NCBI GenBank assembly: GCA_902584445.1 | Contig: CACHZY010000009.1 | Span: 1 to 64,000, forward strand | DNA length: 64,000 bases | Direction of reading: 5' to 3' | DNA from: an uncultured Bacteroidota bacterium | GTDB lineage: Bacteria > Bacteroidota > Bacteroidia > Flavobacteriales > Flavobacteriaceae | In this document: piece by piece, positions 31,824 through 64,000 of the stretch | How positions within the stretch are numbered: position 1 is the stretch's first letter | Layout: each line of letters begins with the position of its first letter | Program-made: the position numbers and the translations under genes | Notes under the pieces: generated by a model | Database searches by the model: none | What the model saw: the letters and a program-made list of their open reading frames with translations, nothing else | What the model was told of the DNA's origin: nothing

Positions 31824-32276
31824 ATGTCTTTATTAAAAAACCTTAATGATGAATTAAAAGCTGCAATGAAAGCAAAGGATACGCTTAAACTAGAAGCATT
31901 AAGGGCTATTAAATCAGCAGTCCTATTGGCTCAAACCTCATCTGGTGCTGGAGATGCATTATCTGAAGATGACGAGATTAAATTGCTTCAAAGACTTATA
32001 AAACAGCGAAAAGATAGTGCTGCGATTTATAAGGATCAAAACCGAGATGACCTTGCTGCACCGGAGGAAGAACAAGCTAAGGTAATAGCTAAATTTTTAC
32101 CAGAACAATTATCACTTCATGAAATAGAAAAAATAGTGTCGAGTATTATATTAAAAATAAGTGCAGAGGGGATGAAAGATATGGGAAAAGTAATGGGAAT
32201 GGCAACTAAGGAAATGGCTGGTAAAGCGGATGGAAAAACTATTTCTGATGTTGTAAAGAGGAAACTTTCTATTTAA
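31824..32276 (+). CDS. GatB/YqeY domain protein
   Basis: A 150-residue stand-alone YqeY protein, related to the tail domain of GatB in tRNA-dependent amidotransferase. LLKNLNDELKAAMKAKD, the RLIKQRKDSAAIY helix, FLPEQLSLHEIE and MGKVMGMATKEMAGKADGK (in two parts) are all typical. Its precise function is not established. It sits at the end of the dcw operon, as in many Bacteroidota. Confidence 0.93.
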   Translation: MSLLKNLNDELKAAMKAKDTLKLEALRAIKSAVLLAQTSSGAGDALSEDDEIKLLQRLIKQRKDSAAIYKDQNRDDLAAPEEEQAKVIAKFLPEQLSLHEIEKIVSSIILKISAEGMKDMGKVMGMATKEMAGKADGKTISDVVKRKLSI

Positions 32277-32294
32277 AATAAATCCTTTGCGTAA

Positions 32295-32891
32295 TTATTC
32301 AAGAATTACCCATTGCTTTAATTTAACATCCGTTTCAGAAGAAAGTTCCAAGGTTAGAGAACGGGCCATATAGATACCTGCAGCACGACTAGTTTCACCT
32401 ACAGCAAGGCAAAGTGTAAGATTTTCTTCTGGCACAAATTCTCTACTATCTTCGTTATAGACAAATTTCTGATCGGATGAACTTGTATCACTTTCTAAAA
32501 GTCTTAAACTCATGCCTTTTGAAGCTCCTCCAGGCATTCCTATACAGTAACCGGTAAACTCAACCGAACAAATCTGAAGTGTTTCTTTGTTAAAAAAAAA
32601 CTGAACATCACCACCTCTTGCCTTACAAGAATGTGCATGTAATTCTTCATTGAAACCTCTACCTCGCGTATCAATACAATATCCTAGTTGATCTTGTTCA
32701 TCTAGATTGTCTGCAAGATGAATCACTGGTGAAGGAGTTTGGATAATGGGGGGATTTGCAGGTTTCACATCTACCTTTGTGTCCTCAATTTCATTTTCCA
32801 TAACTTGAGCTGCTCCTTCTTTTTTACAAAAACTTAGGGAAAAAAAAATCAAACACAGTAAGCTTCTGTATTTCAAATTATAATTCTTCAT
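32295..32891 (-). CDS. Lipoprotein with a ricin-B-like beta-trefoil
   Basis: 198 residues with a signal peptide ending SLSFC (lipidated C22), a proline-rich spacer (about 43-58) and a C-terminal domain of about 130 residues. That domain shows three similar units, each opening with a cysteine strand (GYCIDTRG, GYCIGMPG, LTLCLAVG) and closing with an aromatic QxF/QxW-like end (DVQFFF, DQKFVY, LKQWVI), the signature of ricin-type beta-trefoils. It should sit on the envelope and may bind sugar. It converges on yqeY with an 18-bp gap. Fold is inferred from internal symmetry only. Confidence 0.7.
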   Translation of the reverse strand: MKNYNLKYRSLLCLIFFSLSFCKKEGAAQVMENEIEDTKVDVKPANPPIIQTPSPVIHLADNLDEQDQLGYCIDTRGRGFNEELHAHSCKARGGDVQFFFNKETLQICSVEFTGYCIGMPGGASKGMSLRLLESDTSSSDQKFVYNEDSREFVPEENLTLCLAVGETSRAAGIYMARSLTLELSSETDVKLKQWVILE

Positions 32892-33013
32892 TTTTTGATT
32901 TGTTCTCTAATAATTTTATCCTTCAAAGGAACATTAATTTTAATAATTTTCGATATTATTTTATGATTATTAGAATTAATAATCACTCTTTTTTCTAATT
33001 TTGATTTTCAAAT

Positions 33014-33087
33014 GGGGGAGTAGTTCAACTGGATAGAATAACAGATTTCGGCTCTGTTGGTTGGGGGTTCGAATCCTCTCTCCCTCA
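33014..33087 (+). tRNA. tRNA-Arg (anticodon TCG)
   Basis: A 74-nt cloverleaf: acceptor GGGGGAG pairs with CTCCCTC (one G-U), D arm GTTC/GAAT, anticodon stem ACAGA/TCTGT around loop TTTCGGC with anticodon TCG, variable loop TGGTT, T arm with TTCGAAT loop, and discriminator A. CCA is not encoded. A -7-like box TAATTTTG (32996-33003) lies 10 bp upstream. A strong terminator follows. Confidence 0.93.
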
Positions 33088-33094
33088 CAAACGT

Positions 33095-33124
33095 AAAACC
33101 CACAAAGAATTGTGGGTTTTTTTT
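33095..33124 (+). terminator. Rho-independent terminator after tRNA-Arg
   Basis: An 11-bp perfect stem, AAAACCCACAA (33095-33105) with TTGTGGGTTTT (33110-33120), closes a 4-nt loop and runs into further T residues. Two smaller ACCC...GGGT dyads follow at 33125-33134 (also followed by T-run) and about 33145-33155. It is the only clear intrinsic terminator I found in the window. Confidence 0.9.
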
Positions 33125-33295
33125 ACCCAAAGGGTTTTTTTATAACCCTACGGGTCTTAATTTATTTTTGTAAATATCTGTAAAACAATTATTTAAAAAA
33201 TTATTCCTAGAAAACAACTTTATATTTTTGATAATTTTTTTTATATTGCTCACTTCATAAAATTTTACAAAACAATTAAAACCATTAAACCCTAG
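33125..33295. other. Non-coding leader region before the sulfatase
   Basis: Together with the tRNA this fills the 404-bp gap between 32892 and 33295. Apart from the two small ACCC/GGGT dyads it is AT-rich with no frame. TATTTTTG occurs twice (33163-33170 and 33223-33230) and fits TAnnTTTG, but neither has a TTG at the right spacing, so promoter assignment is uncertain. Confidence 0.35.
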
Positions 33296-35038
33296 ATGAA
33301 AAAAAGCACCTTATTTTTTTTACTATGTTTTGTTTTTTTGATTAAATGTGAAAAAGATACAACTCCACCTAATGTAATTCTTATTATCACTGATGATCAA
33401 GGTTATGGGGATTTAAATTTTAACGGAAATCCAAATATAAAAACACCAGCCTTGGATAAATTTGCTACTGAGAGTGTAAGGTTTAATAATTTTTATGTCT
33501 CTCCTGTTTGCGCTCCAACAAGGTCTAGTTTAATGACCGGAAGGTATTCATTAAGAACTGGGGTTAGAGATACATACAATGGTGGAGCAATAATGGCATC
33601 TTCTGAGGTTACTTTAGCCGAAATGCTAAAACAAGCGAATTTCACGACTGGAATCTTTGGTAAATGGCATTTGGGAGACAATTATCCTTCCAGACCCTCG
33701 GACCAGGGATTTGACGAGTCATTAATTCATCTTGCAGGTGGTATGGGACAGGTTGGTGATTTTACAAATTATTTCAAAAAAGATACAAGTTATTTCGATC
33801 CAATTTTATGGCATAATAATGAGCAAAAACCCTATAAGGGTTATTGCTCAGACATCTTCACTGAAAACGCAATTGAATTTATTGAGAAAAATAAAAACAA
33901 TCCCTTTTTCTGTTACCTTTCTTTTAATGCACCTCACAACCCGCTTCAGGTTCCTGATGAATACTATCAGGCTTATAAGACCTTAGATCCAACTGATGGC
34001 ATTGACCCAGAATTAATTCCTAATGAAAAAATTAGCGAAAAAACAAAAGATAACACACGTAAGGTATATGCGATGGTTACCAACATTGATGATAACCTAA
34101 AAAAGCTTTTTAATAAGGTTGATGAATTGGGCATAAAGGACAATACTATATTAATTTTTATGACTGACAATGGACCCCAGCATGCAAGGTATATATCCGG
34201 TATGAAAGGGAGAAAAAGTAGTGTTTACAATGGTGGAATAAGGGTGCCATTTTTTTTGAGATTTCCCGCTATGTTTAGAGGTAACCAAGAAGTCAATCAA
34301 ATTACTGCTCATATTGACCTATTACCTACCCTTTCTAAGTTATGTAATGTTGAAATGCCTAGAGATAGAAAAATAGATGGAAGAAGTTTTATACCTTCAA
34401 TCAATAGTGAGAAACTCCCAGAGAGAAGTTTTTTTTCATATTGGACTAGAAAATATCCTGAATTATTTAACAATATTGCTTTGCAGCGAGGTCAATTTAA
34501 GTTGATTGGGAAGACTGATTACAATTCTCCAATTGAAAATTTTGAATTATATGATACTTATAAAGACCCCTTTGAAAAAAATAATCTTGTAACTCAAAAA
34601 AAATCCATTGCTCTTTCTCTCAAGAAGGAAATGCACCAAACCTTTTTGGAACTAGTTAATTCAGAAAACTTAAAAAACCCTCCAAGAATTATGTTAGGAA
34701 GTGATTTTGAAAATCCAGTTTATCTTAATAGAAATGATGCTGGAGGTCAAAGAGCTGTATGGAACCAGGAGCAGGCTTATTCCTTCTGGAAAGTAGATAT
34801 TAATAAAGAAGGCTTATATGATCTAAAATTTAAGTTTTTAAAACCACTGCCAGCTAATGGTAATATGTATTTAGAAATAGGTCAAAGCATACAGCAAAAA
34901 TTTAATTCTAAAGATAATCTTGATGTGATAGAAATGAAATCTGTTTATCTTCCAAAGGGTTTCAATGATTTTACACCTTTTTATATGTTTCAAAAGGGAA
35001 ATTATTTCCCCCTATATGTTAAAGTTACTGCCAAATAG
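33296..35038 (+). CDS. Sulfatase lipoprotein (S1 family, arylsulfatase type)
   Basis: A 580-residue formylglycine sulfatase expected to remove sulfate esters from a glycan outside the cytoplasm. The signal peptide ends LIKC (C18, lipidated). The catalytic motif is C72APTR, so C72 is matured to formylglycine by an anaerobic or aerobic activator encoded elsewhere. Metal ligands include D33-D34 and the DNGPQ segment; GKWHLG is present. After residue 460 there is an extra C-terminal domain of about 110 residues, predicted all-beta, unlike the compact sulfatase end. It converges on the GH32 gene with a 14-bp overlap, which suggests a shared locus. Substrate is unknown. Confidence 0.93.
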   Translation: MKKSTLFFLLCFVFLIKCEKDTTPPNVILIITDDQGYGDLNFNGNPNIKTPALDKFATESVRFNNFYVSPVCAPTRSSLMTGRYSLRTGVRDTYNGGAIMASSEVTLAEMLKQANFTTGIFGKWHLGDNYPSRPSDQGFDESLIHLAGGMGQVGDFTNYFKKDTSYFDPILWHNNEQKPYKGYCSDIFTENAIEFIEKNKNNPFFCYLSFNAPHNPLQVPDEYYQAYKTLDPTDGIDPELIPNEKISEKTKDNTRKVYAMVTNIDDNLKKLFNKVDELGIKDNTILIFMTDNGPQHARYISGMKGRKSSVYNGGIRVPFFLRFPAMFRGNQEVNQITAHIDLLPTLSKLCNVEMPRDRKIDGRSFIPSINSEKLPERSFFSYWTRKYPELFNNIALQRGQFKLIGKTDYNSPIENFELYDTYKDPFEKNNLVTQKKSIALSLKKEMHQTFLELVNSENLKNPPRIMLGSDFENPVYLNRNDAGGQRAVWNQEQAYSFWKVDINKEGLYDLKFKFLKPLPANGNMYLEIGQSIQQKFNSKDNLDVIEMKSVYLPKGFNDFTPFYMFQKGNYFPLYVKVTAK

Positions 35039-36500
35039 ATTTTAAGGAGCTTACTTTGAATAAGTTAAATATTTCCTTTTCATTACCGATTAATTTGATG
35101 GTTTTGTTGGAGTCATCTGAAATAGCATAATTTGTTGAAACACTATAGCCCTCGTCAATAAAAATTTCAATAGAAGTACGATCTAGTAAAACTCTAAAGC
35201 TTTTAAAACTCCCATTAAGAGAGGGTAACTCAGTATTTTCAAAATAAAATTTTCCTTTTTGATATGATAAAATTTGCCCCCTAATATTAATTTCAAAATT
35301 ATTTACTTTTTCTGGGTTGAAAGATCCGTATAGGTCAATCAGCTCATATCTATTCTTAGCAAGTTTTTTGTTAATGGTTGAGAGCTTATTTTTCCTGTAT
35401 AAATTAGTCCTATGGTATAAACTTTCAATTTCCTTAATCGGCCATCTAAATAACCGAATTCCATCAAGTGTTGTTTTTAATTCCATTGTACATGGGAATG
35501 ACATTTGTTGATTAAATGGCATATCATTATCAACAAACACACTATTCCCTGCTCGCATCCATCCAATAATTACAGTTCTTCCATCAGGGCTATTATTAAA
35601 AGTTTGAGCTGCGTAGTAATTTTTTCCTAGGTCTCCAAGGTATTTTGACTTATTAGTAATCATCGATTTACCATCAAAAATTCCTACTTCATAATCAAAA
35701 CTAGCATCGTATATAAGCCATTTCCTGTTTTGAGAGTTTCCATCCACAGAAAGTTCAACCAAATCCATGCATTCATAAACCCAACTTCTGTCAAAATCAC
35801 TTAGAAATTCCCAATTTTTAAGATCATTTGAATAGAAGAAACGAACTTTACCTAAGTCTTTTTTGTTTTTTCTATCTGCTTTGCTTAACCATAAAACCAT
35901 AACCCACTTTTTAGAAGGTTCGTGCCAAAAAACCTTAGGATCTCTCTCCGTTCTTCTACCTTTTCTGTCTGAAAATCCTTGGTTTGGAACTAGCGGTTTA
36001 CCTTGATCAATTAAATTAAAACTCCTGCCACGATCAATACTATAGGCTGCTGATTGATAAAAAGGATCTTTATTTTTTTGAGCGTGCGTAAAATAGGCTA
36101 CAATAGCCTTTTCTTTTTCAGTATTTTTCCCCAAGCTGTTTATATTATCTACAACAGCAGTCCCTGAAAAAATAGTACCATTTCCATAGGGCAAAATTGC
36201 ATGAGGTAATTGTATCCACTTTATCATGTCCCTACTTATTGCATGACCCCAAGTCATATTTCCCCAATTAATACTTTTTGGATTGTGTTGAAAAAACATA
36301 TGATATTCTCCTTTATAATAAACAAGGCCGTTGGGGTCGTTTATCCAATTTTTTTTCGAACTAAAGTGAAATTGAGGTCTTAAAACTTGATCATATTTTG
36401 TTGACGCATAACTTTTGAAAGTTTGAAAGCTGTCAATCATTACATTGGATTGCTCTTGGGCTTGAGTAAACAAAAAAATAAATATTAAACAATATCTCAC
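35025..36500 (-). CDS. Glycoside hydrolase family 32 protein
   Basis: A 491-residue secreted GH32 enzyme, a family that cleaves beta-fructosides such as levan, inulin or sucrose. The propeller motifs are WINDPNG (nucleophile D55), RDP (R186-D187-P188, transition-state stabiliser) and YECMDL (acid/base E243), followed by a C-terminal beta-sandwich. A signal peptide precedes residue 16. Start is GTG at 36500, coupled to the stop of the GH39 gene by a GTGA overlap. No fructokinase or SusC/D is nearby, so fructan use is not certain. Confidence 0.92.
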   Translation of the reverse strand: MRYCLIFIFLFTQAQEQSNVMIDSFQTFKSYASTKYDQVLRPQFHFSSKKNWINDPNGLVYYKGEYHMFFQHNPKSINWGNMTWGHAISRDMIKWIQLPHAILPYGNGTIFSGTAVVDNINSLGKNTEKEKAIVAYFTHAQKNKDPFYQSAAYSIDRGRSFNLIDQGKPLVPNQGFSDRKGRRTERDPKVFWHEPSKKWVMVLWLSKADRKNKKDLGKVRFFYSNDLKNWEFLSDFDRSWVYECMDLVELSVDGNSQNRKWLIYDASFDYEVGIFDGKSMITNKSKYLGDLGKNYYAAQTFNNSPDGRTVIIGWMRAGNSVFVDNDMPFNQQMSFPCTMELKTTLDGIRLFRWPIKEIESLYHRTNLYRKNKLSTINKKLAKNRYELIDLYGSFNPEKVNNFEINIRGQILSYQKGKFYFENTELPSLNGSFKSFRVLLDRTSIEIFIDEGYSVSTNYAISDDSNKTIKLIGNEKEIFNLFKVSSLKSIWQ

Positions 36501-38119
36501 GGAATATGGTTCGTTTTAATAATCATTAGCTTAGCAGATCTTTTCATTAGAGGCAGATCAAAACTTATTTTTCCTTCATCATCAGTTTTAAAATTAATAA
36601 TTTTACTGTAGGTTAGGTTTCCAGCTTCTTTTATTTGAGATAAATTAATTGATTTAGAATTTTTTGGACTTCCAATCTCTATCCATTTTTGGAAAGTATT
36701 ATTGTTTTCTTTATCCAATATTATTGTTTTAATTTGATAAGAAGTGCCTTTTTTTAATCCATTTAGTTTTATCTTAATTTCATCATTTCCTGTTATTTTC
36801 TCTGATTCTGATTCCTCATAATTATAAGTTAGTAGAACAATTTCTTTTTCTGATTTCGTAGCGATTAGTCCAAATCTGCTGTCTTTTTTTGATTTTATGA
36901 CCTTGACACGATTTTCTTTTAAGAGAGCCATCATTTCGAAACCAGTTTGAATAGGTTTTGGAACATTTCCTGCTGTAAGTAGCTCTCTTTTTCCAACAAA
37001 AAATTCATCCTCATCGGCTTCCCAAGAGAACCCCCAATAAAGTAGTAACGAAGTTGGGAATTTGTAATTATCTTCAATTTCATATAGCGAGTTAACTAAC
37101 TTGAAAAGAAATAGTGGTGAACTAATTGAATTCCTGTAGATTAGATCTGGATAATCCTTAACTGTTCGAAAATAATTTGAAGAAAGTCCCCATTCGTTTA
37201 TATGAAATGCTGTCCCTTTGAGAGAAGGAAATAATTTTAGTAATCTTTGTAACCACAAGACAGAAAGGGTAAAACGCTGAACCTGAGGTTGAATATGTGG
37301 GGCTTTATTTAACCATTTTCCTGAAAGTCCATATATGTGATAGGAAATAAAATCAATTTGTGTTCCTTTTTTACCTGTTACATAATTAATTCCATTAGTT
37401 ACATGATTTAAAAATGACTTTAAAAAATATTCATGGTAACATGCAGGCCCACCAACGCGAAGCTCTGAGTCGACAGATTTAACAGCATCTACAAATACAT
37501 CATACATTTTGTAAAAAATTTCTAATTGGTCATTAGGCCACCCATCTGGTTCATTCCAAACCTCAAAAAACCAACTACGGACTTCTTCAGTTCCAAATTG
37601 ATCAATAAAATTTTGGGTTATGGCTTTCATAAGGTCTGACCATTTTTTCCAATCATTTGGTCCAGTATTTATTATTATCATACCCTCGTCATTTCCCCTT
37701 GAAGATTCCACTACATTATTGATTAATAATTCTGGTAAGTAATCATATTCTACAATAGGTTTTATTCCGTTTTCTACATAGGATTGAAAAACCTTGTTTA
37801 CGTTTGAAAAATCATAAATGGGGTTCCCGTCTTGGTCTTCACTATAGACATTTTGTCCCCTAATCACCCCATGTTTTAAATCTTTATTAAAGGTATGATG
37901 TGATCTTAGATAACGGTGAGATCCTTTTTCTCCCATTCTCTTAAGTAAAAACTGGCCAGCAGGCTTTAAACTATGATAGAATAAATGATCTGACCCTGCG
38001 GCTTTCCAAAACTCTGTATTTTTTCCGATTACTTGATCTACTTTGATAATAAAACTATTGTCCTGAGCAAAAATCCATGAGGAAATTATGAGAGTTATTA
38101 AAGTAATTTGCTTAAACAT
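36497..38119 (-). CDS. Glycoside hydrolase family 39-like protein
   Basis: A 540-residue secreted clan-A TIM-barrel hydrolase. E190 in VWNEPDG is the expected acid/base and E309 in HINEWG the nucleophile. Gene layout and motif spacing fit GH39, which holds beta-xylosidases and alpha-L-iduronidases. A signal peptide ends near residue 19 and a beta-sandwich follows the barrel. It lies one base after the propeller gene stop region and overlaps GH32 by 4 bp, so all four minus-strand genes form one operon. Exact substrate cannot be read. Confidence 0.85.
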   Translation of the reverse strand: MFKQITLITLIISSWIFAQDNSFIIKVDQVIGKNTEFWKAAGSDHLFYHSLKPAGQFLLKRMGEKGSHRYLRSHHTFNKDLKHGVIRGQNVYSEDQDGNPIYDFSNVNKVFQSYVENGIKPIVEYDYLPELLINNVVESSRGNDEGMIIINTGPNDWKKWSDLMKAITQNFIDQFGTEEVRSWFFEVWNEPDGWPNDQLEIFYKMYDVFVDAVKSVDSELRVGGPACYHEYFLKSFLNHVTNGINYVTGKKGTQIDFISYHIYGLSGKWLNKAPHIQPQVQRFTLSVLWLQRLLKLFPSLKGTAFHINEWGLSSNYFRTVKDYPDLIYRNSISSPLFLFKLVNSLYEIEDNYKFPTSLLLYWGFSWEADEDEFFVGKRELLTAGNVPKPIQTGFEMMALLKENRVKVIKSKKDSRFGLIATKSEKEIVLLTYNYEESESEKITGNDEIKIKLNGLKKGTSYQIKTIILDKENNNTFQKWIEIGSPKNSKSINLSQIKEAGNLTYSKIINFKTDDEGKISFDLPLMKRSAKLMIIKTNHIP

Positions 38120-38120
38120 C

Positions 38121-39371
38121 TTATTGATTTAATTTAAAAATATAAATCTGTCTAGTTCCGTTGTGCGTGGAATTAAAACCAATAATTTTTCCAGAGGGGC
38201 TCCAACGACAATGTATATCACAGCGCCAGTCTTTTTTATAGGCTGGATCATTTTGAAAACGCCCCAGTGAGATTACTGCTTCTGTCTTCATATCCATAAG
38301 ATATATTTTTTGCTCCTTCATCTCATTTTTGGGATAAGTATCGGTTACCATCCATTTTTCGTCAGGTGAAAAAGTTCCATGTCCATCATAGTCTAGTAGT
38401 CCTTTTCCTAAGCGTTTGTAGTTTTTTTTATCAACATCAAATATTATGTGACCGTACATTTTTTTATTATACTTCGCACTGACCATTAGCTCCTCATCGT
38501 TTAGCCAATCAAAATGAGAACCACCCCATCCATTCGGAAAACATGCTTTTAAATTAGTCCCAATTCGATCAACTGTAAAAGCAGTTGTATTTAAACCAAT
38601 AGGTTTTGCTCTAGATAGCCAAAATATTTTTGAACCTTTTCTGCTAAATAAAGTGTGGTTAAAGTATGCAACACTGTTTTCTTTAATTTCTGGCACATAT
38701 TTTTTTATATCAAAAAGAGAAACGATCAATTTAGCTACTCCATTTTCTAGGTTAATTAAAAATAAACCATCATCTTTTGGGTAAACTTTTTTTATTTTAG
38801 ATTCTTGGCCATTACCTCCATATCCATAGGAGTCCCTTGTGGCCCTTAAGCGAGAAAAATTTATACTTATTGCTTCTTTTCCATTCGGAGATACAGCACT
38901 AATTGGATAAGGAATTACTTTTTTTTCTTTTTTAGTATGTACATTTAGAATAACCGAGACAAATTTTCCTTCTCTTAAATCATTATAAATTATTAAAGAA
39001 TCTGGATTAGTTGATAACCAATGTGCCATACATCCTTGCTGAAAATTCCATGCATGAGTTTTTGTAATTGGAATGAAAGATTTATTTCTAAGATCAACTA
39101 GGCCGAGGGTAGCGGGCTCATTTTCATTAGGTAAATGATCCTTTATAGTTGTTCTTAATACAGTGGCGAAATGCTCATTAGCACTAAATGAGTTTATTCC
39201 ATAATAACTTGCAAAAAAATGTTCATATGGTTTGTCAGTTAATTGAATTGGTCCTGAAATATTGGGGAAATCAACCGAATTGATTACTGTTTTTTTATCT
39301 GTTTTTTGCCCATTAGCCGAAATTGAAAAAATTAGCAAAATTAGGACTACGAATATTTTAATTATTGACAT
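38121..39371 (-). CDS. Oligogalacturonate-lyase-like beta-propeller protein
   Basis: 416 residues with a signal peptide ending near SANGQ. The body shows TolB/WD40-like blades: HFDWLNDEELMVSA, DYDGHGTFSPDEKWMVTD and CRWSPSGKIIGF in order over the last 140 residues. That arrangement, with the conserved His in GSHF and DGHG, resembles family PL22 oligogalacturonate lyases and their relatives in polysaccharide loci. Lyase activity is a guess; it may be a sugar-binding propeller. It is between the SGNH and GH39 genes, 9 bp and 1 bp away. Confidence 0.65.
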   Translation of the reverse strand: MSIIKIFVVLILLIFSISANGQKTDKKTVINSVDFPNISGPIQLTDKPYEHFFASYYGINSFSANEHFATVLRTTIKDHLPNENEPATLGLVDLRNKSFIPITKTHAWNFQQGCMAHWLSTNPDSLIIYNDLREGKFVSVILNVHTKKEKKVIPYPISAVSPNGKEAISINFSRLRATRDSYGYGGNGQESKIKKVYPKDDGLFLINLENGVAKLIVSLFDIKKYVPEIKENSVAYFNHTLFSRKGSKIFWLSRAKPIGLNTTAFTVDRIGTNLKACFPNGWGGSHFDWLNDEELMVSAKYNKKMYGHIIFDVDKKNYKRLGKGLLDYDGHGTFSPDEKWMVTDTYPKNEMKEQKIYLMDMKTEAVISLGRFQNDPAYKKDWRCDIHCRWSPSGKIIGFNSTHNGTRQIYIFKLNQ

Positions 39372-39380
39372 GAATAACCA

Positions 39381-40070
39381 CTATAAATTTTGAAGTATTG
39401 ATTTGACAACTACCTTAGCCAATTCTTCACTGCCATATTTTGAAAAGTGAACATTATAAGGACGTTGTAATTCGTCCATTCTAGGAAGCACAAAACTGTG
39501 AAGGTCATTTATTTTGACATTGTATTTCTTCATCACACTTAAGGCAACTTTATTGTAAATTTTATGCATACCAGGTTTTCTAGCTGGTTTTAGCTTACTA
39601 TTTGGGTATGGTGTTGTAGTTGCAAAGATCAATTTTGCCTTTGTTTTTTTTAATATTTTAACAATTTTTTCGAGGTTATCTTTATATTGTTTTGGAGAAG
39701 CTTGATGTGGGTCATCAAAACTATTGCTGTTTTTTCCGTTTATTGGATTTATATGTTTAATATCGTGAAGCCCAAAGTTGAAATGAATCAAATCCCAAGT
39801 ATTATCTCCCAACCACTTAGATATATTTTTAAGACCTTTTGATGTTCCTGCACAGTTTTCAAATCCGCCATTGGGTAATATGGGTCGGTGAATGTCGACT
39901 TTTTTCAAAAGGGCCTTTTTGACAAACGGATAATAGCCGATGGAAATAGAATCTCCTAGAATTAGGACTTTTGGCAAATTGTTTATATCACTTAAAAATC
40001 CATAAGATGAGACTATTGCTCCAATTGGCCCCAAAGTTGTTAGTTTAATAAAAGTACTTCTACTAATCAT
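39381..40070 (-). CDS. SGNH/GDSL hydrolase
   Basis: 229 residues. Block I is GDSIS (S41 nucleophile), the conserved Asn is in HFNFGLHD (about N98), and the catalytic His is in YNVHFSKYG (H208). The residue three before that His is Tyr rather than the usual Asp, so a dyad or alternate acid is possible. A hydrophobic N-terminus with MISRSTFIKL suggests export. In a glycan locus such enzymes usually remove acetyl or other acyl groups. First gene of the four-gene minus-strand operon. Confidence 0.82.
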   Translation of the reverse strand: MISRSTFIKLTTLGPIGAIVSSYGFLSDINNLPKVLILGDSISIGYYPFVKKALLKKVDIHRPILPNGGFENCAGTSKGLKNISKWLGDNTWDLIHFNFGLHDIKHINPINGKNSNSFDDPHQASPKQYKDNLEKIVKILKKTKAKLIFATTTPYPNSKLKPARKPGMHKIYNKVALSVMKKYNVKINDLHSFVLPRMDELQRPYNVHFSKYGSEELAKVVVKSILQNL

Positions 40071-40133: not shown

Positions 40134-42338
40134 TTAAGTTATTAGGCTAGCTAAAAAGTCTTTGACCATAATTGGGTTTTCGATAAAATACTTAGCTTGA
40201 GTTTTCTTCCTCCCAACTTTAATTGTGATTGCATGTTGGGGAAGGTCATTAAACATGAACTCATCAGTAACGTCATCACCAAAGCAAATAATGAAATCTA
40301 GATCTTTGTTACTTATAATTTCTGAAACAGCTGTACCCTTATTAAATCTTCCAAAGGCAACTTCAATCGCTTTGTCTCCATCAAGAATATTAAGGTCATC
40401 AGAGATAAGGCTGCTTAACACTGTTTTTAACTCAACAACTCTCTCCGCTGCTAGCTCAGGATCGGTTTTTCTGTAATGCCACACCAAACTATTTCTTTTC
40501 TCTTCGATAAAAGTACCTGGAGTTCGATCGGTAAAAGTTTCCAATAAGGGCATTATATCATCTTGCCATTTTTTTTGATTGACTCCTTTACTTGTCCACC
40601 CACCTTTTTTAAATTTCATAAAATTTCCATGTTCTGCTACCATAGCTATCGAGAGGTCACCAAACCATTGATCTAAGAAATATTGATCCCTTCCACTCAC
40701 GATCGCCAAATCTGTTTTAGGTGTTTCAGAGAGTTGTTTTATAAGTGATATTAAACTTTCTTCAGGTTGAGCCAATTCTGGGTCATCATTAAAATCCACT
40801 AAAGTTCCATCATAGTCCAATAATATCATTCTTCTTTTCGAAGATTTAAATTTTTTAATCAGAGTCTGTTTAATTTTTTTATTAAGTATTTTAGCAGAAT
40901 ATTCATCATCTAAAGCTGGTTTTGATTTCAATGACTTCATAAACTCATTGGCCCAAAGTTCAACTGAGTAACGACTCAGACGCTTTTGCATGCTGAAGTT
41001 CCTTTTTTTCTGTTCTTCAATAGGCATATTTATAGCGGTCAAAATAGACTCGGCCATTTGGTTCAAGTCAAATGGATTTACCATCAATGCCTCGTACAAC
41101 TCTTTTGAAGCTCCTGCCATTTCACTTAAAATCAGAACACCGTCACCACTAACTCTGGTTGCAACAAATTCTTTGGCTACCAAATTCATTCCATCCCGAA
41201 CAGGAGTAATCATTCCAATATCTGAGGTCATATAAAGATCAATAAGATCATCAAAAGCCATCGCTCGATAATAATACCATATGGGCGTCCAATTGACTGT
41301 AGCGAATTTTCCATTTACCCTTCCAACAATCTCGTCGGTTTCCTTTTTTAGCCGTTGATATTCTGACACGCTAGAGCGAGAAGGGACGGTTAGCATTACC
41401 AATCTTACTTTTTCAAGGTATTCGGGATACTTAGTCAAGAAAAGTTCAAAAGCTTTTATCCTATTGATTACCCCTTTAGTATAATCTAAGCGGTCGATGG
41501 ATAGTATTAGTTTGCTTTTTTCAGCACCCTTTTTATGTAGTTCAAGTTGTTTTTTTAAATCAGATTTTTCCCCTTGTTTCATTTCTTTATGAGTCAAAGC
41601 AGCATTTTTAAACTTATTATAATCAATCCCCATTGGAAAGGTATTGACCACGACTTCACGATTTCCTAAACTTACACGATTAAATGAAACATCTTTTTTT
41701 AAAATTCTTTTGACGGAGCTTAAAAAATGACGCTCATAATCATAGGTGTGGAACCCTATAAGATCTGCACCAAGCATGCCCTCTAAAAGAGGCTCTCTCC
41801 ATGGAAAAATTCTAAAAATTTCAAAAGAAGGGAAGGGAATATGCAGAAAAAAACCTATGATAATATCAGGTCTTTCATCTTTAATCATTTTTGGGCAAAG
41901 TAGGAGTTGGTAATCATGAATCCATACCGTATCTCCTTTTTCAATATTCTTAAGAACACTATCAGCAAATTTCTTATTTACTTCATAATACGAGATCCAC
42001 TGATCTTCGCTGAAAACTGAAAACTCGATAAAGTAGTGAAAAAGCGGCCAAAGTGATTTATTTGATAGCCCGAAATAAAAATTTTCAATTTCTGTATTAT
42101 TTAAGGATACAGGAAAAAAGCCCTCTTTTTTTAGTAATTTCTTTAACGGACCCCACGACTTTTTATCAATCTGCTCATCATTGATTCCTGGCCAGCCTAT
42201 CCATAGGGATTCTTGATCCTTGTGAACAGAGTTCATACCTGTTGCTAATCCCCCACTAGTTGGCGTAAATTCAAAAGAATTATCTAACTTCGTTATTTGA
42301 AGAGGTAGTCGATTAGAAACTATAACATTCTTAGCCAT
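40134..42338 (-). CDS. Fused trehalose-6-phosphate synthase/phosphatase
   Basis: 734 residues in two enzymes. The N-terminal GT20 domain (about 1-460) opens SNRLPLQI and has WIHDYQLLLCP, FFLHIPFPS and DGMNLVAKEF; it makes trehalose-6-phosphate from UDP-glucose and glucose-6-phosphate. The C-terminal HAD domain starts at D508YDGT and carries SGRDQYFLDQW, AEHGNF and FGDDVTDEFMF; it removes the phosphate. The product, trehalose, protects against osmotic and drying stress. The gene is divergent from a GH15 gene with only 30 bp between starts. Confidence 0.95.
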   Translation of the reverse strand: MAKNVIVSNRLPLQITKLDNSFEFTPTSGGLATGMNSVHKDQESLWIGWPGINDEQIDKKSWGPLKKLLKKEGFFPVSLNNTEIENFYFGLSNKSLWPLFHYFIEFSVFSEDQWISYYEVNKKFADSVLKNIEKGDTVWIHDYQLLLCPKMIKDERPDIIIGFFLHIPFPSFEIFRIFPWREPLLEGMLGADLIGFHTYDYERHFLSSVKRILKKDVSFNRVSLGNREVVVNTFPMGIDYNKFKNAALTHKEMKQGEKSDLKKQLELHKKGAEKSKLILSIDRLDYTKGVINRIKAFELFLTKYPEYLEKVRLVMLTVPSRSSVSEYQRLKKETDEIVGRVNGKFATVNWTPIWYYYRAMAFDDLIDLYMTSDIGMITPVRDGMNLVAKEFVATRVSGDGVLILSEMAGASKELYEALMVNPFDLNQMAESILTAINMPIEEQKKRNFSMQKRLSRYSVELWANEFMKSLKSKPALDDEYSAKILNKKIKQTLIKKFKSSKRRMILLDYDGTLVDFNDDPELAQPEESLISLIKQLSETPKTDLAIVSGRDQYFLDQWFGDLSIAMVAEHGNFMKFKKGGWTSKGVNQKKWQDDIMPLLETFTDRTPGTFIEEKRNSLVWHYRKTDPELAAERVVELKTVLSSLISDDLNILDGDKAIEVAFGRFNKGTAVSEIISNKDLDFIICFGDDVTDEFMFNDLPQHAITIKVGRKKTQAKYFIENPIMVKDFLASLIT

Positions 42339-42368
42339 AAACCGTTTAAAAAATAGTGGTTACAATTT

Positions 42369-44159
42369 ATGGATTTAAACAAGCTGCAACCTATGTTGGA
42401 TAACCTAAATTATGGAATTATAGGAAATTGTAAGTCATCTGCGCTTATAAATGAGGATTCTTCAATAGATTGGTGTTGTTTACCACAATTTGATTCTCCT
42501 TCAGTTTTTGGTAAAATTCTGGATGAAAAAATAGGTGGATCATTTAAAATTTCATGTGATAAGAGTTATAGAATTACTCAGAAATACTTAAATAAAACCT
42601 GTATTTTAAAAACTAAATTTGATAATGGTTCAGATTCATTTGAATTGCTGGATTATATGCCTAGATTTCAAAAGGAAAATGGGGTTTATTATGCTCCCCC
42701 AGAGATTTGTAGAATTTTAAAACTCATCAAAGGGAATCCAAAATTAAAAATTTTATACGATCCAAAACTTGAGTATTCCATTGGGAAAACTAATAATTAC
42801 GAAAAAAACGATTTTATAGTAAGTGTCGTAAATGAGGAAAGATATGACACGCTCTATTTGTATACTGATCTGAATAAAAAAAGTATTTTAGAATCATCAG
42901 AAATTTGTCTTGATAGAGATTATTTCCTTTCAATTTCTTATAATGAAAAAATCGATCCCCCAACTTTAGGTCATGTTAATTTCGAACTTGAGAGGACAAA
43001 GGTTTATTGGCTCAACTGGTGTTTTAAAACTCCCAGTTATGAGAATTATAATTCTCAAATATTAAGGAGCGCTATGACATTAAAATTATTAACATTTGAA
43101 AAAACCGGAGCGGTACTTGCCGCAGCAACCACTTCACTGCCAGAGACAATTGGAGAAGTTAGAAACTGGGATTATAGATTTTGCTGGATTCGTGATGCTT
43201 CAATGGTTATAAAAGTAATTACAAAATTAGGACACGTTAAAATTGTAAAAAAGTTTATTGATTTTATTTTAAATATTATTCCAGATAAAAATGAAAAACT
43301 CCAGATAATGTATGGTATTAATGGAGAAAAAATGTTAACCGAAGAAACTTTGAATCATCTTTCTGGATATAAAAATTCAAGTCCTGTTAGAGTTGGTAAT
43401 GCTGCATTTATTCAGAAACAAAATGATATATATGGCATTTTAGTTGACGCTATTCACTATCAAATAGAAAAATACATTGATAAGAATGACAAACATGAGG
43501 AACTTTGGTCTATTGTTAAGAATATTGTTTGGGTGGTTGATAATAATTGGAAAATGCCAGATAAAGGAATTTGGGAATTTAGACAGGAGGATCAGCATTT
43601 CACTTTTTCAAAGCTTTTGTGCTGGGTTGCCGTTGACCGTGCAATTAAAATATCCGAGTTAATTCAAGGTGGTAAATCTGCTAAGAAATGGGAATCTTTA
43701 AGGACTGAAATTTATAATGATATTATTGATAATGCATGGAGTGATGAAAAACAAGCATTTACCCAATCCTATGGTACATCTCATTTGGATGCATCTGTAT
43801 TATTGATGGAACCTTATGGATTCATTGATGCAAAGGACATTAGGTATGTTAAAACTGTAAAAGCTATAGAAAAAGAACTCTCGCACGAAGGGCTTTTATT
43901 TAGATATAAAAATGTTGATGATTTTGGTACTCCGAGCTCATCATTTACTGTTTGTACTTTTTGGTTTATCAATAGCCTTTACAAAATTGGTGAGAAAGAA
44001 AAATCAAAATTAATGTTTGACCAGTTATTATCTTACAGTAATCATTTAGGACTCTTTAGTGAAGACATTGACTTCAAATCGAAACGTCTTTTAGGAAATT
44101 TCCCTCAAGCATATTCACATTTAGCACTCATTGATACTGCAATGAATTTCAACGAATAA
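42369..44159 (+). CDS. Glycoside hydrolase family 15 protein (glucoamylase/trehalase type)
   Basis: 596 residues without a signal peptide, so cytoplasmic. The N-terminal beta-sandwich (YGIIGNCKSSALINEDSSIDW, read in two parts, and PQFDSPSVFG) is followed by the catalytic (alpha/alpha)6 barrel with WDYRFCWIRDASM (about residues 267-279) and the late GTPSSSFTVCTFWF and NFPQAYSHLALI. Bacterial GH15 proteins of this layout include trehalases. Divergence from the trehalose synthase gene supports trehalose as substrate here. Alternative: a glucoamylase on maltodextrin. Confidence 0.88.
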   Translation: MDLNKLQPMLDNLNYGIIGNCKSSALINEDSSIDWCCLPQFDSPSVFGKILDEKIGGSFKISCDKSYRITQKYLNKTCILKTKFDNGSDSFELLDYMPRFQKENGVYYAPPEICRILKLIKGNPKLKILYDPKLEYSIGKTNNYEKNDFIVSVVNEERYDTLYLYTDLNKKSILESSEICLDRDYFLSISYNEKIDPPTLGHVNFELERTKVYWLNWCFKTPSYENYNSQILRSAMTLKLLTFEKTGAVLAAATTSLPETIGEVRNWDYRFCWIRDASMVIKVITKLGHVKIVKKFIDFILNIIPDKNEKLQIMYGINGEKMLTEETLNHLSGYKNSSPVRVGNAAFIQKQNDIYGILVDAIHYQIEKYIDKNDKHEELWSIVKNIVWVVDNNWKMPDKGIWEFRQEDQHFTFSKLLCWVAVDRAIKISELIQGGKSAKKWESLRTEIYNDIIDNAWSDEKQAFTQSYGTSHLDASVLLMEPYGFIDAKDIRYVKTVKAIEKELSHEGLLFRYKNVDDFGTPSSSFTVCTFWFINSLYKIGEKEKSKLMFDQLLSYSNHLGLFSEDIDFKSKRLLGNFPQAYSHLALIDTAMNFNE

Positions 44160-61635: not shown

Positions 61636-63051
61636 TCATCGATCGATGTTGACACTATTGTCAATGAGATAGTTTGCATCAATTTCTTTTTGTGGTATTT
61701 TCAAGAAGAATTTTTTGTCATCGGGTTGTAAATCGGCAGCACTTTTAATTCTATGATTTCCTGTCCTGGAAATTCCAAGGCGAAGTCTTTTTGCATCATA
61801 CCACTCAACACCCATCTCGCCATAAAGTTCTTTTCTTCTTTCAACTAAAATTTCGTCAATAAGCGATTCGCCAATATTTCCTGAGGGTATTGCATTTACA
61901 TCTCGATTCTTTTGCAACTCAAAGAGTAAATTCGCTGCCTCTGTTTCATCTCCTAACCTGGCCTTTGCCTCTGCCTCTATTAGGTGCATTTCTACAGAAC
62001 GAATTATAGGAATGTCTGATGTGAAGGCAAATTTGAATTTTGTTGATGCCCAGGTATTAAAGCGAGTTTCTTCCTCTCCTTCAAATTGGTTAGTAAAAGT
62101 GTTTCTAACATCAGTATCACTGAATAAGGAAACGAAGTCACGATTCCAATAGGCTAAGCCATATCCATCGCTATTAATATCAGTGAATGAGTGCGGAGCA
62201 ATGTCAAAATAATTCGATTGATCTAATTGTTGGGGCATTGCCCATATCCATTCACTGTTATTCATATCATCAAACCCCTCGTTAAATTCAGTTGCATTAA
62301 ATTCAAAACCCTGTTTTGCACTGTTGGCCATTGAAGCTGCTTCTTGCCAGTTTCCCATTACTTGGTGGACCCTAGCAGATATAGCGAAAGCAACACTACG
62401 ATTTACATATGATTTATTGATTCTAGTCTCTGGAGTGAATTGAACCGCATAATTAAGATCCTCTAAAATAAAATTATACAATTCAGTTAAAGATGACATA
62501 GCCTTTCCCTCATTTGCAGGCTCTCTATAAATTGGCGGAGCAGGCAGACTAGGGTCAAAGCTAAAGGTATGTTGGAATTCCATTGCTAACTGAAAATAGT
62601 AAAAAGCTCTTAAAGCAAATGCTTGGCCAAGCAAGGGTTGTTTTTCGGAATCCAAAAGGTATTCACTATTATTGACACCATCAATAAAAATATTAATTTG
62701 GTTAATTATTGTGAAAGGAAATTCCCAGGTAAAGGTCGTTCTTCTATAGGTTGGTTCACGATTATCATTTTCATAATCGAATAAATACCATCCATTTCCT
62801 AAAATTAAATCATTTCCCTTAACAACTCTAGCAAAAAAAATGGAATATAAACCCCCTGAGTCTGTTTTTTCGTAGGATATTCTGCTAAGACGTAATATAC
62901 CTGATATTAAAGCCTCAGCACTTTCTTTAGATTTAAAAACAGCATCCGAATTAATTGTTCCGGTAGGTTTTGGCTCTTCCAAATAATACTTATCGCATGA
63001 CAATAAAATGCTTACAATAAAAAAATAAAATTTAATTAGAGATTTTTTCAT
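61636..63051 (-). CDS. SusD/RagB-family surface lipoprotein
   Basis: 471 residues. The signal peptide ends SILLSC (C19, lipidated). YYLEEPKPTGTINSDAVFKS, the TPR-like QAFALRAFYYFQLAMEF helices and the C-terminal VEMHLIEAEAKARLG and ILVERRKELYGEMGVEWYD (in parts) are standard SusD. It caps the adjacent SusC barrel and captures a glycan or peptide; the ligand is not readable. It lies 9 bp after SusC and 49 bp before rlmB. Confidence 0.94.
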   Translation of the reverse strand: MKKSLIKFYFFIVSILLSCDKYYLEEPKPTGTINSDAVFKSKESAEALISGILRLSRISYEKTDSGGLYSIFFARVVKGNDLILGNGWYLFDYENDNREPTYRRTTFTWEFPFTIINQINIFIDGVNNSEYLLDSEKQPLLGQAFALRAFYYFQLAMEFQHTFSFDPSLPAPPIYREPANEGKAMSSLTELYNFILEDLNYAVQFTPETRINKSYVNRSVAFAISARVHQVMGNWQEAASMANSAKQGFEFNATEFNEGFDDMNNSEWIWAMPQQLDQSNYFDIAPHSFTDINSDGYGLAYWNRDFVSLFSDTDVRNTFTNQFEGEEETRFNTWASTKFKFAFTSDIPIIRSVEMHLIEAEAKARLGDETEAANLLFELQKNRDVNAIPSGNIGESLIDEILVERRKELYGEMGVEWYDAKRLRLGISRTGNHRIKSAADLQPDDKKFFLKIPQKEIDANYLIDNSVNIDR

Positions 63052-63060
63052 TTTAAAAAT

Positions 63061-64000
63061 TTACAATTGAAGATTAATCCCAAGGGCGTAAGTTTTCATT
63101 TGGTGTGATCGGTTATCAGTTAGACCAGATAAAGCTTGTTCTGGATCAATTCCTCTGTGAGATTGATAGGTGAAAATATTATCACCTTGGAAAAAAATTC
63201 TAATTTTTTCTAGGTTTAATTTACCAATAAAATTTTGACTTAAGTTATATCCAATATTTAAGCCTCTTAACCTAATGTAATCGTTTTTAAAAAGAAATCT
63301 TGTCGATTCCGAGTTAAAATCATTTTGACCATTCAAAAACAGCGGAACATCGGTTAAGTCTCCGGGGTTTTGCCATCTTTTTTCAAGATCAGGATGACCC
63401 TGCCTACCAGCTGTTTCAAATCCATTCATCAGACTAGCGTAGACACTATCATATATATAGGATCCAAAGCTAAAATTGAAAAGCGCACTCAAATCAAAAT
63501 TTTTGAATGATGAATTAATTGAAAATCCTCCTACAAATGAAGGTATAGATGACTTTCCTGTATAATACCTTGTAGCTTCTGAATATTCTTTTGTTTTTAT
63601 TTGTTCACCTGTACGAACACCTTGGTCTGTTACAATATCTTTAAACCACATTTGATAGCCGTCTCTAAAATCAACACCTGCAGACTTAGGCATGAAAAAT
63701 TCGTAAAGGGATTTTCCCACTTGCCATTTTTTATTTCCATCAATAAATTCTTTTTGGGTAAGCTCAGTAATAACATTTTTGTCGAATGAAAAATTTAATC
63801 CTAGATTTAATTCAAAATTACTTTGACCAGTTTTGAATTGAGAAGTACCATTAGCTCGGCTTAAAATATTACCGTTAAAAGAAAATTCAAATCCAGAATT
63901 TTTAACCGCACCAACATTTGTTTTTACAAATTCGTTACCTGTAGATAAGGCAAGGGGTTGATCATAAATTAGATCAATAGACTCCTTGTTGTAATATTCT
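63061..64000 (-). CDS. SusC/RagA TonB-dependent transporter (N-terminus outside window)
   Basis: About 313 C-terminal residues are visible; the frame is open to the window edge. STGNEFVKTNVGAVKNSGFE, GKSLYEFFMPKSAGVD, GGFSINSSFKNFDLSALFNF and NDYIRLRGLNIGYNL are typical of the last barrel strands of SusC. It imports the ligand caught by SusD using TonB energy. An internal GTG at 63720 is not a start. Confidence 0.93.
   Translation of the reverse strand, partial: EYYNKESIDLIYDQPLALSTGNEFVKTNVGAVKNSGFEFSFNGNILSRANGTSQFKTGQSNFELNLGLNFSFDKNVITELTQKEFIDGNKKWQVGKSLYEFFMPKSAGVDFRDGYQMWFKDIVTDQGVRTGEQIKTKEYSEATRYYTGKSSIPSFVGGFSINSSFKNFDLSALFNFSFGSYIYDSVYASLMNGFETAGRQGHPDLEKRWQNPGDLTDVPLFLNGQNDFNSESTRFLFKNDYIRLRGLNIGYNLSQNFIGKLNLEKIRIFFQGDNIFTYQSHRGIDPEQALSGLTDNRSHQMKTYALGINLQL

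Follow-up and report, generated by a model that had tools for sequence, protein, structure and literature searches.

What do five genes for carbohydrate-active enzymes (CAZymes) and related proteins do side by side on a bacterial contig when no transporter stands among them? The question is raised by an islet in an uncultured Flavobacteriaceae bacterium, where an S1-type sulfatase, a GH32, a GH39, a beta-propeller protein and an SGNH/GDSL esterase-like protein are encoded together (Table 1). The stretch of DNA analysed, here called the window, comprises bases 1-64000 of contig C9 (64,397 bases); the assembly (G000) is a draft of 1.70 Mb in 70 contigs, 69% complete. Its nearest named records are draft genomes of uncultured Bacteroidetes and Flavobacteriaceae, for example AG-914-G02, AG-325-E04 and TMED121, and we infer only from the names of such related records that the host is marine. 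The islet site lies between otsAB and a tRNA-Arg gene, and we think it rather probable that a mosaic was built there: a satellite, itself without SusC/D, of a glycan-utilisation system whose parts are dispersed over the genome.

The sulfatase gene, on the forward strand, converges with those for GH32, GH39, the propeller and the SGNH protein, all on the reverse strand. Sulfatase and GH32 overlap by 14 bp and GH32 and GH39 by 4 bp, the remaining intergenic gaps are 1 and 9 bp, and 207 bp lie between the end of tRNA-Arg and the sulfatase start; signal or lipoprotein sequences at the N-termini were judged by eye. An earlier note on this DNA had described the same open reading frames (ORFs), strands, overlaps and tRNA gene at these places and had suggested looking for the set in other genomes. 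It is found, in the same order, in L002-L005, which represent four sister species; all four have the 14-bp overlap and three the 4-bp overlap (start codons set mechanically). Because order and overlaps recur in this way, the arrangement is not a chance one.

Beyond these species the islet comes apart. A search for relatives of the GH39 yielded 79 loci, of which 22 (L002-L023), several of them on short contigs, were tabulated, the others being at most 29% identical. Among the 22, otsAB lies near in 12, SGNH in 16, GH32 in 9, an orthologous sulfatase (at least 66% identical) in 8 and a member of the propeller family in 10, the window's own propeller type (at least 62%) being confined to 6 (L002-L005, L020 and L021). 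These counts suggest SGNH-GH39 as the core and GH32/sulfatase and the propeller as additions to it. We accordingly distinguish module A, SGNH-GH39 with the propeller between them in the window clade, from module B, GH32 converging with the sulfatase. Such a division tells against the earlier note's proposal of one self-contained pathway. Conservation of the five-gene order in five species favours a new stand-alone pathway, but we consider it highly improbable: the modules are separate in relatives, uptake genes are absent from the islet, the likely SusC/D partners lie on other contigs and, among the 22 GH39 loci, the window propeller type is found inside an islet only in the window subclade.

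The same division opens a more serious alternative, namely that two unrelated modules came to share one tolerated insertion site and have no joint pathway, GH39-SGNH-propeller serving a sulfated rhamnose/uronate glycan and GH32-sulfatase a sulfated fructoside or fructan. In G011 and G008, GH39 (with SGNH in G011) and GH32-sulfatase occupy separate places, and G015 has GH32-sulfatase and no GH39 match; in these three genomes module B stands beside otsAB without SGNH-GH39 (L248, L249 and L224, respectively). Conversely, L010, L013 and L019 have SGNH-GH39 and no GH32 was found there, the L013 contig ending inside GH39. Fragmented trehalase or OmpA matches make gene absences less reliable at L010 and L013. 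Against the alternative stand the 4-bp and 14-bp overlaps that pack sulfatase, GH32 and GH39 together in several species, and an inheritance pattern described below. All considered, we regard two unrelated modules as possible, though doubtful.

The earlier note had remarked on the lack of a transporter, a sensor and a sugar kinase. As regards transporter and kinase this is true of the islet itself: no SusC/D adjoins its CAZymes within the islet or among its neighbours, the nearest SusD found being 21.6 kb away. It is not true of the wider setting (no search for a sensor was made), as the window holds that SusD with a partial SusC, two Pfam models each give nine SusD matches in the genome, and five sister loci have a kinase and a symporter beside the sulfatase. 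The pair in the window (61636-64000, reverse strand), a second SusC/D pair, includes a partial SusC-like ORF (63061-64000) that is 22-24% identical to the two SusC compared; it adjoins an rRNA methyltransferase-like gene and an AAA ATPase (by eye), and no CAZyme was recognised beside it.

Better candidates came from relatives in which the orthologous CAZyme does lie beside SusC/D. In G011 (L017), two SusC/D pairs stand divergent from GH39, SGNH and a sulfatase other than that of the islet. SusC17 and SusD17, on contig C17 of the window's own genome, are 93% and 91% identical to the G011 pair divergent from GH39-sulfatase-SGNH, the next best of the nine own SusC/D loci reaching 26-31%, and four sulfatase-like ORFs lie near them. 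SusD2, on contig C2, is 83% identical to a SusD beside GH39 in G011 and 88% to the one beside GH39 in G008, where GH39 is divergent from the SusC2/SusD2 pair (L014). Contig C2 also carries UxuA, UxaC and KduI, each over its NCBIfam cut-off, together with a LacI-type regulator (by eye), a sugar porter, a TRAP component and a KdgK-like kinase (under cut-off). The G011 locus further encodes two GH78-type proteins, GH28, GH92, GH88-DUF1961, a DUF4962/heparinase-like protein, an enolase-superfamily protein, a SASA esterase and 13 ORFs that resemble sulfatases in BLAST. This very large sulfatase-rich locus, with its two SusC/D pairs, GH92, GH78, GH28, GH88 and heparinase-like protein, has similar counterparts in G004, G016 and G017 (L271-L273, L017).

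Co-occurrence was scored in a genus set of 22 genomes, mostly drafts 65-91% complete and one 99%. GH39 is present in 17, SusD2 in 15 and both in 14 (Fisher p=0.021, not corrected for kinship). SusD17 orthologues (at least 79% identical) occur in 6 of the 22; each of these six also has GH39, and among them are the five genomes in which the islet was seen to include the propeller. Several points count against a dispersed system, beginning with the draft state of these genomes. The orthologous CAZyme adjoins SusC/D in only 2 of the 22 tabulated GH39 loci (L017 and L014), and, of the 14 genomes with both GH39 and SusD2, only two (G008 and G011) have them on one contig. SusD2 is missing from GH39-positive G006, G007 and G020 and present in GH39-negative G021; the SusD17 profile alone is not significant (p=0.17), and close relatives make up five of the six genomes that carry it. 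A GH88 would be expected to act after a lyase; it scores over cut-off in 19 of the 22 genomes, but not in our own, incomplete, one. Finally, the lyase role discussed below for the propeller draws solely on a predicted fold and on neighbour genes.

A second line of evidence concerns inheritance. We compared 28 genes across relatives, a set that excludes the four C17 sulfatases and the C2 SusC fragment as paralogue hits, as well as genes lacking a value for G014 or G003. For otsAB, G003 is closer to our genome than G014 (92 vs 86%), and 21 of the 28 genes follow this pattern; one, the SusC fragment at 63061, is reversed by 1 point (85 vs 84), and six are reversed by 2-17 points. The six, with G014/G003 identities, are the sulfatase (96/89), GH32 (94/92), GH39 (95/87), PL8 (92/88, query from G006), SusC17 (95/89) and SusD17 (97/80). 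By these identities two unlinked loci, the islet and the C17 SusC/D, have a common inheritance pattern, and they are to be counted as two events, not six. That sulfatase, GH32 and GH39 follow in G014 one pattern common to SusC17/SusD17 also speaks against two unrelated modules. SusD17 in G011 is likewise 91% identical to ours, vs 79% for otsAB. Along L004, the islet locus of G014, identity to the window passes from 75-86% (SGNH, propeller, OtsAB) to 94-96% (GH39, GH32, sulfatase), as if recombination with a breakpoint between the genes for propeller and GH39 had replaced the GH39-GH32-sulfatase block.

One enzyme found beside the sulfatase in the closest relatives is missing here. It is a PL8, whose gene follows on that of the sulfatase with 0 bp between them in L002-L005, the four nearest species, and tRNA-Arg lies beyond PL8 in L002, L003 and L005, the L004 contig ending there. 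Window segments 32200-33189 and 33277-33522 align to L002 on the two flanks of PL8, with 87 unmatched bases between them, so that about 2.4 kb of PL8-bearing DNA is missing at the breakpoint. No PL8 remnant was detected near the site (best match E 2.5), and PL8 was not found in our 69% complete genome; relatives of it occur in 16 of the 22 genus genomes. The best solved relative of the L002 enzyme is chondroitinase AC (1hm2, 4.8e-77). G004 has, elsewhere in its genome, adjoining genes for a sulfatase (64% identical) and a PL8 (62%), and in L250, L252, L253 and L254 PL8 lies apart from sulfatases; in the sulfatase tree, the key branch that bears on a joint arrival of the window-clade sulfatase and PL8 has a support of only 0.507. 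The loss could be taken to mean that the islet is a decaying remnant, deprived of import and PL8, whose surviving enzymes cut glycans to release sulfate or to the benefit of other cells, and the absence of kinase, aldolase and symporter from the site and the 1.7-Mb assembly fit such decay. However, all five ORFs are intact, catalytic motifs are conserved in three of the proteins, and candidate partner SusC/D and uronate catabolism are encoded elsewhere in the genome, so we hold decay to be quite improbable.

Module B has its own companions in sister loci. A PfkB kinase lies upstream of the sulfatase on the same strand in five of them (L006, L009, L224, L248 and L249), overlapping it by 4 bp in L224 and L249, and in the same five an N-acetylneuraminate-lyase-like aldolase and a sodium/solute symporter are divergent from the sulfatase; L012 and L018 have GH32-sulfatase without an adjoining kinase. 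None of the three genes is at the islet site in the window, and a 49% homologue of the kinase lies beside another symporter on contig C10 of our genome. The kinase is 31-32% identical to those of three GH32-SusC/D loci, and has no match to KdgK at 1e-3. As its NCBIfam scores for IolC (100 bits) and fructokinase (93) are both under cut-off, "fructokinase-like" is the limit of what its sequence supports. A kinase like the fructokinases of fructan loci, adjoining module B and unmatched by KdgK, is a further point for two unrelated modules.

The catalytic motifs of sulfatase, GH32 and GH39 are intact. The C-x-P-x-R motif, whose role in S1 sulfatases is well known, occupies residues 72-76 and is invariant in 9 aligned sequences; the C-terminal 130 residues have no Pfam match. 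In the GH32, the NDPNG, RDP and EC motifs are present and D55, D187 and E243 are invariant in 10 sequences, as are E190 and E309 of the GH39 in 8; these acidic residues and glutamates have catalytic roles in the two families. The closest solved structures to the GH32 are exo-inulinases. An unusual GH32 specificity, suspected in the earlier note, was dropped on these canonical motifs, and the neighbours in sister loci include the fructokinase-like kinase. The GH39 is xylosidase-like by sequence and might have rhamnosidase activity; with the NCBIfam model for alpha-1,4-L-rhamnosidase it scores only 21.6 bits (cut-off 850). Xylose was set aside as a substrate sugar readable from GH39 alone, and the sugar cut may be xylose or rhamnose, because an endo-rhamnosidase of ulvan is a GH39, described in PMC8360166 as acting on xylose-rich ulvan fragments. 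In the SGNH protein, block I is kept (G39-D40-S41 invariant in 7 sequences). The consensus of this superfamily has an Asn in block III and DxxH in block V; here, in 7/7 aligned sequences, the Asn is replaced by His (GLHD) and block V reads xNVH with Y, N, Q or K instead of D. The protein is therefore esterase-like at best.

For the propeller, the predicted model (pLDDT, predicted local distance difference test, 78.4, built from 8 sequences) is closest in fold to PL22 oligogalacturonate lyase (3pe7, Z 29.2 with 329 aligned residues and root-mean-square deviation 3.6; 3c5m, 28.6), with a next best match of Z 25.3 and other propellers at Z 22-25. By sequence, the PL22 Pfam model PF14583 has no match in our genome at E<=0.001 and none in six propellers scanned at E<=10, hhalign aligns 71 columns (the last repeat only) with a probability of 36.7, and the best PDB sequence found with the propeller profile is a TolB at E 0.069. 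Matches to the propeller at E<=0.001 were obtained in 28 of 299 family genomes, many of them weak. Twelve Flavobacteriaceae loci with the PL22 model were fetched, of which L255-L260 alone were aligned; a GH106 relative adjoins in 7 of the 12, all seven being among the 9 loci whose PL22 match is over cut-off. Two other lineages, L020 (Flammeovirgaceae according to its record) and L021 (Marinifilum), show the gene order propeller', propeller, GH106, GH39. Because of the predicted PL22-like fold and the GH106 and GH39 neighbours, a role as uronate lyase is plausible for the modelled protein. Membership in PL42 was set aside, FoRham1 being a BNR_4 protein and the propeller having no BNR_4 match; nor is FoRham1 among the fold matches listed for the propeller, which is no proof against PL42. 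A BNR_4 protein is present in the Marinifilum locus. Our genome has a second, distant propeller (27% identical) on contig C24 (L153, 11968-13248), beside transporter-like genes, and its type also adjoins GH39 in L008, L015 and L016.

How does this assembly compare with known systems? The literature search found no paper that names GH32, GH39 and sulfatase together for a flavobacterial polysaccharide utilisation locus (PUL), and none that names PL8 and GH39 together for a marine sulfated-glycan PUL. SusC/D-sulfatase PULs for glucuronomannan and of the GH92-sulfatase type (PMC6298971, PMC9723552, PMC6794258) share with the islet exported glycoside hydrolases, sulfatases and an esterase; among the relatives, the G011 locus has two SusC/D pairs, GH92, GH88 and 13 sulfatase-like ORFs. 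They differ in that the window CAZymes are detached from SusC/D and that the locus of the relatives adds GH78, GH28, GH39 and a heparinase-like protein; in the main text of the three papers GH39 is not mentioned. Parts of the islet lie in a large SusC/D-sulfatase locus of relatives, for which no characterisation was found; the earlier note had named embedding of the set in a known, characterised polysaccharide locus as what would refute its view, and this is half the case. Ulvan loci, as far as the ulvan passages of PMC8360166 go, have in common GH39, rhamnosidases, sulfatases and uronate processing, whereas GH32 and PL8 do not appear in those passages; no ulvan lyase was recognised among ten G011 proteins scanned, and our own genome was not searched for one. 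PL22 resembles the propeller in predicted fold and in its GH106 neighbours, and differs in the Pfam and profile results above. Flavobacterial GH32 loci with SusC/D, MFS porter and PfkB kinase (L227, L228 and L235, fructan PULs by resemblance) share the GH32 catalytic motifs and the kinase type of the sister loci, but the window GH32 is 32-35% identical to theirs and pairs with a sulfatase, without SusC/D. Likeness to PL8 chondroitinase AC or xanthan lyase concerns the sister species only. To our knowledge, systems of this kind, with CAZymes in an islet away from their SusC/D, are not new in themselves; the novelty seems to lie in this particular mosaic, in the module of GH32, sulfatase and kinase, and in the propeller family.

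On the dispersed-system reading, the SusC/D of C17 and C2 would import into the periplasm oligosaccharides of a sulfated, acylated uronate-/rhamnose-type phytoplankton glycan. There the SGNH protein would take off acyl groups, the propeller and/or, in sisters, PL8 would cut at uronate residues, GH39 would take off xylose or rhamnose and the sulfatase sulfate, and unsaturated uronates would enter the KduI/UxaC/UxuA route encoded on C2. Module B would free fructose from a fructoside, to be phosphorylated by the fructokinase-like kinase of the sisters or its homologue on C10. As substrate of the dispersed pathway we favour a sulfated glycan of uronate and rhamnose type, with GH32 and sulfatase forming a further unit that would free fructose. 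The earlier note had deduced a sulfated, acylated glycan with xylose or uronic acid; a sulfated uronate glycan is indeed the best-supported class for the GH39/SGNH half, with hexuronate catabolism beside a partner SusD and PL8 beside the sulfatase in four sisters, but the sugar cannot be read from GH39. More boldly, GH32, sulfatase and PL8, contiguous in the four sisters, might act on one sulfated uronan with fructofuranosyl branches, from which GH32 would strip fructose so that the lyase can cut and the kinase would salvage it, the propeller founding an undescribed uronate-lyase family with a PL22-like fold. Fructosylated chondroitin, which was not named in the papers listed by a literature search, is comparable in principle to such a polymer; we judge this idea unlikely.

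Table 1. Features of the islet and its surroundings in the window.
Feature	Position	Strand	Basis or remark
tRNA-Arg (tcg)	33014..33088	+	ARAGORN; right-hand neighbour of the islet site
PL8 breakpoint (PL8-bearing DNA of four nearest species missing)	33190..33276		Alignment to L002
S1-type sulfatase, probable lipoprotein (by eye)	33296..35038	+	Pfam PF00884, 210.6 bits, well over cut-off
GH32	35025..36500	-	Pfam, 215.7 bits, well over cut-off
GH39	36497..38119	-	Pfam, 175.3 bits, well over cut-off
PD40-type beta-propeller protein	38121..39371	-	Pfam PD40, 21.2 vs cut-off 20.9, barely over
SGNH/GDSL esterase-like protein	39381..40070	-	Pfam GDSL_2, 34.4 vs cut-off 32.9, barely over
OtsAB trehalose-6-phosphate synthase/phosphatase	40134..42338	-	Left-hand neighbour, outside the islet; site context
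SusD-like protein of another SusC/D pair	61636..63051	-	Two Pfam models; no evidence ties it to the islet

As to the site itself, OtsAB and a GH15-type trehalase are divergent neighbours (40134-44159) that mark it in many relatives, and tRNA-Arg is present in 6 of 12 relative loci scanned. As 63 bp separate OtsAB from the SGNH gene downstream of it on the same strand, the otsAB transcript could extend into the islet. On the other side, a small lipoprotein-like protein with a ricin-B-type lectin domain (32295-32891, reverse strand; PF00652, 30.1 vs cut-off 29) has homologues in L002 and L003, and none was found in L005.

Genus-wide comparison can thus link an orphan islet of enzymes back to transporters and catabolic genes encoded elsewhere, and in this case it names two SusC/D pairs, a kinase and a lyase as specific partner candidates. 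The propeller family, with its repeated GH39 and GH106 neighbours, is a candidate lyase family.

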